Virus record (IMG/VR): IMGVR_UViG_3300037054_000059
Coordinates: 1 to 28,088 of that record
From: a virus
Direction: 5' to 3' (one strand)
Length of the DNA stretch: 28,088 nt
Shown: in pieces, positions 25,027 through 26,476 of the stretch
Layout: every line of letters starts with the position of its first letter
Numbering within the stretch: the stretch's first letter is position 1
Notes under the pieces: model-generated
Databases searched by the model: none
The model's input: the letters and a program-made list of their open reading frames with translations, nothing else
Told to the model about the DNA's origin: nothing
Translations under genes and position numbers: made by a program

Positions 25027-25032
25027 AGGTTG

Positions 25033-25038
25033 ATACTA
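25033..25038 (-). promoter_or_regulatory. -10 element TAGTAT for leaderless terL
   Basis: TAGTAT ends six bases before the GTG of terL, so transcription is predicted to start on the start codon. The -35 is weak and the extended TG is shifted one base. Divergent from the HNH promoter; the two -10 elements are 33 bases apart. Confidence 0.45.
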
Positions 25039-25068
25039 CAGCGGTACAGCGTCAGGATTATGAACACG

Positions 25069-25077
25069 TGTTACTAT
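25069..25077 (+). promoter_or_regulatory. Extended -10 promoter of the second HNH gene, leaderless start
   Basis: TGT-TACTAT ends exactly six bases before the ATG chosen for the HNH gene, repeating the arrangement of the HNH gene at 1.66 kb. No Shine-Dalgarno and no good -35 are visible. Confidence 0.55.
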
Positions 25078-25083
25078 GTACAA

Positions 25084-25386
25084 ATGGGCACACGCGAGAT
25101 GATCGTCGATTGGGAACTTAAAAGGATGATGCGCAAGGTCCAAGTCACAGATTCGTGCTGGGTGTGGATGGGAGCAACCAGTCACCACGGGTACGCAATG
25201 ACGACGGTCGCTGGTAAGCAGCGGGTGGCGCACAGAGCCTTCTATGAGTTGATTGTGGGCGAGATACCGGAGGGTCTGGTACTTGACCACCTTTGTCACG
25301 GATGGGACCAGGAATGTCGCAAGGGGAGCCTGTGCCCTCATAGACGATGTGTGAACCCAGATCACCTAGAGCCATTAACCTCATAA
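25084..25386 (+). CDS. HNH endonuclease (compact, HNH_3-like)
   Basis: Start ATG (MGTREMIVDWEL) is chosen because a -10 hexamer lies six bases upstream and the HNH domain begins soon after; in-frame ATGs further upstream add only unsupported sequence. The 100-residue protein reads DSCWVWMGATSHHGYAM (23-39), VAHRAFYELIVGEIPEG (48-64), then the core LDHLC ... CRKGSLCPHRRCVNPDHLE, with D68-H69, N91 and H94 as catalytic residues and C71, C78, C84 and C89 as likely zinc ligands. It resembles the HNH at 1.66 kb but ends right after the core, with no HTH, and has an insertion between the first zinc ligands. It lies divergently beside terL, a common site for phage HNH genes. Confidence 0.88.
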   Translation: MGTREMIVDWELKRMMRKVQVTDSCWVWMGATSHHGYAMTTVAGKQRVAHRAFYELIVGEIPEGLVLDHLCHGWDQECRKGSLCPHRRCVNPDHLEPLTS

Positions 25387-25453: not shown

Positions 25454-25524
25454 TGGTGGAACTAACGGGAATTGAACCCGTCGGAAGCCCGTCCAAATGG
25501 TCCCCCGGCGAACCTGCTAGTCCC
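25454..25524 (-). tRNA. tRNA-like element: canonical T-arm, acceptor and CCA, non-canonical body
   Basis: The 3' part is textbook tRNA: ACGGG-TTCAATT-CCCGT (T-arm), TAGTTCC, A, CCA. GGGACTA upstream pairs with TAGTTCC over 7 bp with one G-U pair. The 36 bases between do not form a normal D-arm and anticodon arm. They give a 5-bp hairpin (GGTTC/GGACC), and then either a weak GGA/TCC hairpin or an alternative 8-bp stem with one mismatch. No 7-base loop with U33 is seen and the element is about 5 bases short. It could be a degenerate phage tRNA, a tRNA mimic, or the tRNA-3'-end part of an attachment site. Confidence 0.45.
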
Positions 25525-25593
25525 GGAAGGGGGAAGTGATCTGACACCCGTACGATGGGCGACCAGATCACTTCCCCTTCCTTCTTTCGGGAC
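25520..25593 (-). ncRNA. Long hairpin directly 5' of the tRNA-like element
   Basis: Arms 25526-25543 and 25564-25580 pair over 17 bp with one bulged G. An outer GTCCCG/CGGGAC adds 6 bp across an A-rich internal loop. The apical part on the minus strand, CGCCC-ATCGTAC-GGGTG, is a 5-bp stem with a 7-base loop shaped like an anticodon arm (T33, CGT). The outer stem shares five bases of the tRNA-like acceptor strand, so the two folds exclude each other there. Confidence 0.55.
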
Positions 25594-25639
25594 CAGGAGA
25601 GAGAACGAAGAATGCGGGTAATTGTACCTGTCTAGAAGC

Positions 25640-25668
25640 AGTACAGTACTACTATTTTCTCTGGTCAA
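25640..25668 (-). promoter_or_regulatory. Promoter TTGACC-N17-TGTACT upstream of the structured RNA
   Basis: TTGACC and TGTACT are spaced 17 bases apart on the minus strand, with a predicted start near 25633. It closely resembles the capsid-module promoter (TTGACT-N17-TGTAAT). Transcription would run into the hairpin and the tRNA-like element within 180 bases. Confidence 0.5.
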
Positions 25669-25713
25669 AGGGCACATACCCGGTTAACGATTATTCACAT
25701 ACAGACGATCTGA

Positions 25714-26056: not shown

Positions 26057-26476
26057 CTAGGAATGTTCACTCCGTTTACGTTGCTTCGGATTGTTGACAC
26101 CGTTGGATATCAAACAAGTGTCAGTGAGTCGTAAACACTTGCATTCACGACGCTCTTCGAGTGAATCGCTCCAGTGCATAATCCGCCGATCAAGCCCTAC
26201 ACGGTTCAAAGGTGGTTGGCAAAAGAACACCAATCCAGCTTCGCGATTCTTAGCCTCACGCCTGGTGTTAAATGCCTCAAGCGTAAAGAAAGATAATCCC
26301 ATAGAACGCTTAGACCGCCAGTGATCGTTAAGCCGCGAGACAACGTGCTCGGATTGTCCAACGTACATGATTTTGCCATCAGTATCGTAGAGCCGATAGA
26401 CGTAAAAGTGTTCATTATCAACGAAATCTCGTAGTTGGTACATCACGTCAGGGAATTTGCAGATGATTTCTTCCAT
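26057..26476 (-). CDS. GIY-YIG endonuclease
   Basis: The 139-residue protein has the full GIY-YIG nuclease layout: HFYVYRLYD (YVY, 25-27, in the GIY place), KIMYVGQSEHVVSRLNDHW (YVG 38-40; R48 catalytic), a helix with REAKNREAGLVF (E79 as metal-binding Glu) and PPLNRVG (N91). The remaining 45 residues are basic and Cys-containing (RRECKCLRLTDTCLISNGV) and may help DNA binding. It is a free-standing single-domain nuclease without a NUMOD tail, probably a mobile or homing-type enzyme. It is transcribed leftward from the edge of the AT-rich region, with a TAGTGT -10 six bases before the ATG and no properly spaced Shine-Dalgarno. Its base composition is more AT-rich than the virion genes, consistent with separate acquisition. 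Confidence 0.88.
   Translation of the reverse strand: MEEIICKFPDVMYQLRDFVDNEHFYVYRLYDTDGKIMYVGQSEHVVSRLNDHWRSKRSMGLSFFTLEAFNTRREAKNREAGLVFFCQPPLNRVGLDRRIMHWSDSLEERRECKCLRLTDTCLISNGVNNPKQRKRSEHS

Follow-up and report, generated by a model that had tools for sequence, protein, structure and literature searches.

What does a tailed phage encode just ahead of its terminase operon, where the 3' end of a transcript looks like a tRNA and the remainder does not obviously do so? The question was raised by a stretch of 28,088 bases (hereafter the window), a tailed-phage fragment whose protein calls include a terminase, a portal and a major head protein. On its minus strand lie a promoter-like pair, a hairpin and a tRNA-like RNA, for which an earlier note had proposed a tRNA mimic, an RNA switch, a decayed tRNA or an attachment-site relic. 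Our comparisons support the direction of the first proposal, as the RNA falls into a tRNA-like family with conserved pairing.

Anatomy of the 71-nt RNA and its leader

Based on a covariance model (R3) and on covariation, the RNA at 25454-25524 (minus strand, as are all features of this section) is predicted to be a compact cloverleaf of 71 nt with a 7-bp acceptor, a tiny D arm, a middle arm, a T arm and CCA. According to the family comparison, the acceptor 5' strand GGGACTA (25524-25518) forms seven pairs with TAGTTCC (25464-25458), including G3:U70, and this 3' segment (25464-25454) ends with A73 and the encoded CCA (ACCA, 25457-25454). The T arm, ACGGG-TTCAATT-CCCGT (25481-25465), is recognizable by sequence pattern and as a family helix. 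Searching for the T-arm plus CCA pattern gave a single match in the window and none in 100 dinucleotide shuffles. Acceptor, T arm and CCA are present as first described. The body between them had been called non-tRNA, which proved wrong in part: the mini D arm GCAGGTTCGC (25517-25508, aligned helix 2), which has one A.C mismatch and directly abuts the acceptor with no 8-9 linker, and the middle, anticodon-like arm CGGGGG-A-CC-AUUUGGAC-GG-G-CUUCCG (25507-25482, from folds and helix 3 covariation) both match the family model. In the family register the loop AUUUGGA (25498-25492) shows U33, an "anticodon" UUG (Gln CAA) and A38; because the loop-closing pair is C.C, an 8-nt loop is equally likely. 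The tRNA elbow sequences, the D-loop GG and the T loop, are intact.

The promoter-like TTGACC-N17-TGTACT pair is indeed found at 25668-25640, with TTGACC at 25668-25663, TGTACT at 25645-25640 and a spacer of 17 nt. Folding further predicts a GC-rich leader hairpin (25594-25518) whose outer 7-bp stem includes the acceptor 5' strand. It consists of helices of 7, 5, 14 and 5 bp with small bulges between them, the last closing a tip loop of 7 nt (ATCGTAC), and no exact matches to the tip sequence were found. With -50.8 kcal/mol (z -7.65; 0/200 shuffles equally good), the hairpin is very stable, but its longest uninterrupted run is 14 bp rather than 17. The alternative pairing of the acceptor 5' strand with the outer stem (GGTCCCG/CGGGACT) is also real, at -71.0 versus -68.5 to -69.4 kcal/mol (about -69), which makes the two states near-isoenergetic, and in 200 shuffles of the upstream sequence no equally good complement to the acceptor arose. 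Stable hairpins (z < -2) lie close upstream of 10 of 20 actinomycete/viral family members, the window scoring z -8.1 here, and of only 1 of 27 Patescibacteria members. Since the family as a whole does not share the alternative pairing, an RNA switch is a possibility for this phage alone.

A variable slot ahead of the terminase operon

Among phages, the closest relative is L003 (terminase 83% identical), which matches the window DNA up to about 25609, including the -10 region and the leader; the -35 is not common to both. Past that point L003 carries a different small gene and then the terminase, without the tRNA-like RNA. No ortholog of the RNA was found in any of 11 terminase relatives, several of whose records are fragments. 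In the window, an HNH endonuclease gene (25030-25386, plus strand) sits on the opposite strand between the RNA and the terminase, and a GIY-YIG-type endonuclease gene (26057-26476, minus strand) lies on the other flank. The hairpin, the tRNA-like RNA and the HNH gene thus occupy a variable slot, with a conserved leader on one side and the terminase operon on the other.

Two observations concern the surroundings of the slot. L003 has an HNH homolog at a different location, and the tRNA-like RNA is absent from all 80 viral loci with HNH homologs. In addition, the motif AACCGGGTATGTGCCC at 25670-25685 (minus strand), which is followed by a GTARTAACTAT-like box, also occurs upstream of the terminase in L003-L013 and is kept in most relatives; motif and box likely form a shared operon control site.

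A family of compact alanine-type tRNA-like RNAs

Neither ARAGORN nor Rfam 15 at gathering scores recognized anything in the window, RF00005 gave no match there at E <= 1, and thus ARAGORN, a check that the earlier note had proposed, does not call the RNA. A search for the window's acceptor pair together with a T arm yielded three bacterial loci (two Acidimicrobiia and one Peregrinibacterium), all of them small cloverleafs and none called a tRNA by ARAGORN (0/3). Allowing a shorter body in the pattern brought in the viral loci L115, L116 and L110 as well as compact tRNA-Ala genes of tRNA-rich phages. Two loci in phage tRNA clusters, L109:6195-6265 and L114:4633-4703, are probable compact tRNA-Ala(UGC) genes that ARAGORN missed. 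A hand-aligned model of seven sequences, with a covariation of 0.643 versus 0.187 shuffled and <=0.138 slid, added more members from Acidimicrobiia; canonical tRNAs there reached ~45 bits or less. Moreover, a pattern of amber-like loop plus T arm that left the acceptor unconstrained retrieved the viral loci L153, L154/L157 and L156, all with G3:U70.

When a second model (R2) was applied to 333 Patescibacteria and 346 Actinomycetota genomes at E <= 1e-8, 21 and 5 genomes had matches, respectively, with up to four per genome. Since these include canonical-length tRNA-Ala genes in at least three Patescibacteria (L174, L177, L178) and probably one in Actinomycetota (L124), and since the two centre genomes were part of the set by design, we put the true prevalence at roughly 18/333 and 4/346. 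Altogether, pattern searches and covariance searches of Actinomycetota, Patescibacteria and viral contigs, together with one exact-pattern scan covering all genomes, gave about 45 relatives in these two phyla and in phages. No such family was found in Rfam 15 or in the literature searched (preprints and most subscription papers lay outside its scope), and the family is apparently scattered and undescribed.

The R3 model, built from 37 members with the window and all members sharing its acceptor left out, matched the window at 25524-25454 with 52.9 bits (E 4.1e-11), the next best match scoring 14 bits. The match has the four-helix compact cloverleaf with the mini D arm against the acceptor, and the window sequence itself carries G3:U70 and A73. 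With the sister model R2, canonical tRNA-Ala genes themselves score 50-52 bits, and thus the bit score indicates only an alanine-type cloverleaf, while shape and loop separate the two. The RNA is set apart from a canonical tRNA by the missing linker and variable loop, by its loop sequence and by the failure of ARAGORN and RF00005. Its membership in the compact alanine-type family is strongly supported by these sequence comparisons.

In an alignment of 50 sequences, comprising the 47 non-canonical ones on which the anatomical counts are based and three canonical tRNA-Ala, covariation was 0.715 versus 0.161 shuffled and <=0.121 slid and extended to all four helices, although fitting the alignment to the model favours the structure. 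The covariance search thus found relatives with covarying pairing, and conservation, which the earlier note had made a test of its claim, holds across the RNA family, though the nearest phage relatives are without the RNA. G3:U70 and A73 are present in 50/50 aligned sequences. The model itself favours G3:U70, and independent support for this pair comes from the amber-loop set because its acceptor was not selected. G1-G2-G3 and U70-C71-C72-A73 occur in all 47 non-canonical members and the remaining acceptor covaries. The D arm of 2 to 5 bp begins at position 8 with GG in its loop (helix 2 is 96% paired over the 50 sequences), and in the middle arm a mismatch zone separates an outer helix of 4 bp from a short inner one, which is closed by a loop of 7 to 9 nt.

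In the best-aligned register, which is uncertain for several loops, U33 is found in 38/47 and A38 in 42/47 loops. The loop triplets read stop, Thr, Ser, Gln, Leu, Lys, Arg, Gly, Ile, Asn and Val codons; an alanine anticodon occurs only in L112, a phage tRNA-Ala(UGC) kept as reference, whose row the automatic register displaces by one position. The loop conservation of L153, L154 and L156 is no evidence, because the loop was in the search pattern. Pyrimidines occupy position 37 in 28/47 and the loops differ in length, features that are unusual for efficient decoding and constitute the main grounds for doubt about it.

Probable antisense RNAs and neighbour genes

About a dozen Patescibacteria members and the locus L152 have a terminator-like hairpin after CCA followed by a copy of the D/anticodon segment (L097, L101, L158, L160, L162, L167, L169, L179-L183 and L152, downstream of the element in each). 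On the opposite strand this copy stands directly behind a TATAAT-like box, and in most cases the box is exact. Judging from this arrangement, the copies are probably genes for short antisense RNAs against the anticodon-like loop. Of 46 true body/flank pairs, 14 scored at or above the 99th percentile of mismatched pairs (11.2), where ~0.5 were expected; the tandem pair at L188 and the weak palindromic case at L185 were excluded from this evidence. The window element has no significant downstream copy (p about 0.08 in one test, not significant in the other), and the copy is also missing from most actinomycete/viral members, so it is not a general feature. Other Patescibacteria members show a TTGACA-N17-TATAAT-like promoter immediately after CCA.

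Several loci have a small protein gene directly upstream on the same strand (L148:6559-7071(-), L149:5827-6261(+), L150:6754-7230(-), L115:1736-2149(+), also L156 and L189). The protein resembles a coiled coil, its conserved C-terminal region is probably a winged helix, and no Pfam family was matched at its cut-off. IS1595 (ISXO2-like) transposase genes are neighbours at L149:6621-7577(-), L150:5523-6458(+), L190:350-1315(+) and L116:1598-2191(+), suggesting transposon carriage of these tRNA-like RNAs. The amber-loop loci L153, L154/L157 and L110 have in common a leader CGCGCCTCGGGG..ATCAGGGGCCA..GGAG 3' of the RNA and then a start codon, and their phages carry integrase-like genes.

Proposed function and alternatives

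Our preferred explanation, to which we give a probability of roughly 40%, is that the phage gene encodes a compact tRNA-like RNA that is charged with alanine, delivers it at non-alanine codons and is controlled locally. The leader would be transcribed from the promoter heading the terminase operon, RNase P would free the 5' end of the RNA just past the hairpin, and AlaRS would charge the 71-nt product. Minihelices of acceptor and T arm are substrates of both AlaRS and RNase P. G3-U70 is the main AlaRS determinant (PMC6451123). Taken together, these two points make alanine charging and 5' processing of the window RNA likely by analogy. The charged RNA would then enter the ribosome and insert alanine, with an outcome that may differ by member: missense, stop or frame suppression. 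Ribosomal action is the simplest assumption because the charged RNA would combine an anticodon-like loop with an intact elbow. In the phage, the leader hairpin could capture the acceptor strand and possibly hold activity down; in many Patescibacteria, the antisense RNA against the loop could exert control. The poor closure of the window loop and the absence of any sign of stop-codon recoding in the window count against decoding.

The RNA may alternatively use its charged end otherwise than in decoding, and this is the chief rival, appreciably less probable than alanine delivery. Such an alanyl-RNA would feed a tRNA-dependent ligase or bind a tRNA-handling protein, its loop acting as a recognition or pairing element. 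The loop variation, the pyrimidine at position 37 and the variable loop size fit this possibility, as do the UYGUCA/UYGACA-type loops frequent in Patescibacteria; an antisense RNA would suit a pairing element, and several actinomycete/viral members have the coiled-coil, probably winged-helix protein directly upstream. However, U33 and A38 are retained, the proportions of the middle arm are those of an anticodon arm, and a ligase was not recognized nearby.

The remaining possibilities are weaker. A phage tRNA-Ala that has decayed in its anticodon arm and variable loop is rather improbable: tRNA-cluster phages do carry shortened tRNA-Ala genes of related architecture and the closest phage relatives are without the RNA, but every arm is intact, with acceptor, CCA, T arm and loop, G3:U70, D-loop GG and middle-arm pairing retained, and pure decay would not give a family with covarying helices and non-alanine loops in all members except L112. 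The decay proposed by the earlier note is therefore disfavoured. Still less probable is a conditional leader, in which a switch or an RNase P/RNase III processing site heads the terminase operon and the RNA product is incidental. The near-isoenergetic folds, an acceptor complement unlikely to arise by chance and the position between conserved leader and operon argue for it, whereas the alternative pairing is not common to the family, in the nearest relatives the operon works without the RNA, and the opposite-strand HNH gene intervenes before the terminase.

We consider it very unlikely that the RNA is a mini-tmRNA, a tRNA-like domain without a message part that blocks or performs ribosome rescue. 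RF00023 does match end to end over 25524-25454 (19.9 bits, E 7e-7, 306 model positions deleted) and alanine identity is common to both, but ordinary tRNAs reach 20-37 bits with this model so that the match is not specific, its score is below the gathering score of 47, there is no tag frame, and a full tmRNA is encoded separately in three genomes that contain family members. A permuted tmRNA was rejected separately: the 5' partner GGGACTT pairs at 6/7 positions only, and the HNH stop within ~33 nt leaves no room for a message part. The attachment-site relic, in which the 3' end copies a host tRNA end, has the least chance of all: a tRNA 3' end is present on the phage, but it belongs to a complete small cloverleaf, its last 25 nt have no exact match in one genome per species of 84,980 species, its last 28 nt have none in viral contigs, and no integrase was seen near the site among the window proteins scanned.

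Returning to alanine delivery at non-alanine codons, we tentatively suggest a wider possibility, itself rather doubtful: stripped-down alanine tRNAs with reassigned anticodons may be RNA-only mistranslation modules silenced by antisense RNA or a leader hairpin. If so, such modules would be spread over phages, transposon-adjacent loci and reduced bacterial genomes, placing alanine at stop, Thr, Ser and other codons. RNAs with alanine acceptors on compact bodies are overlooked because tRNA finders key on a canonical cloverleaf and anticodon. If charged, they would alter codon meanings in phages and small-genome bacteria or provide alanyl-RNA for non-ribosomal chemistry, and the antisense arrangement suggests a new mode of control for a tRNA-like molecule.

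Comparison with known RNAs

The tRNA-like domain of tmRNA (RF00023, RF04321) is also an alanine-accepting end, from which the window RNA differs by having neither tag frame nor pseudoknots. The mascRNA/menRNA group (RF01684) has a compact cloverleaf with a mini D arm and is an RNase P-type substrate; matches over its whole model gave 20.2 bits for the window and 30.8 bits for L097, against a gathering score of 42.5, and the likeness of this animal lncRNA product to the window RNA is one of topology only. In bacteria, tRNA-ProX are mistranslating tRNAs whose amino-acid identity and anticodon disagree (PMC10365949), but they have proline identity, a canonical tRNA-Pro backbone and a partner, ProRSx (PMC10365949). 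With canonical tRNA-Ala (RF00005) the family shares the 7-bp acceptor with G3:U70, A73, CCA, the T arm, the D-loop GG and a U33-containing loop; in contrast, family RNAs lack the 8-9 linker and the variable loop and have a D arm of 2 to 5 bp set directly against the acceptor, a middle arm of ~26 nt and a non-alanine loop. Nearly identical in shape and acceptor are the compact tRNA-Ala(UGC) of tRNA-rich phages (for example L112 and L111), which, unlike the family, keep the alanine anticodon and are located in tRNA clusters. ARAGORN calls L111, L112 and L113, which have this same shape with a UGC loop and lie in phage tRNA clusters, tRNA-Ala, indicating that the compact shape is compatible with decoding.
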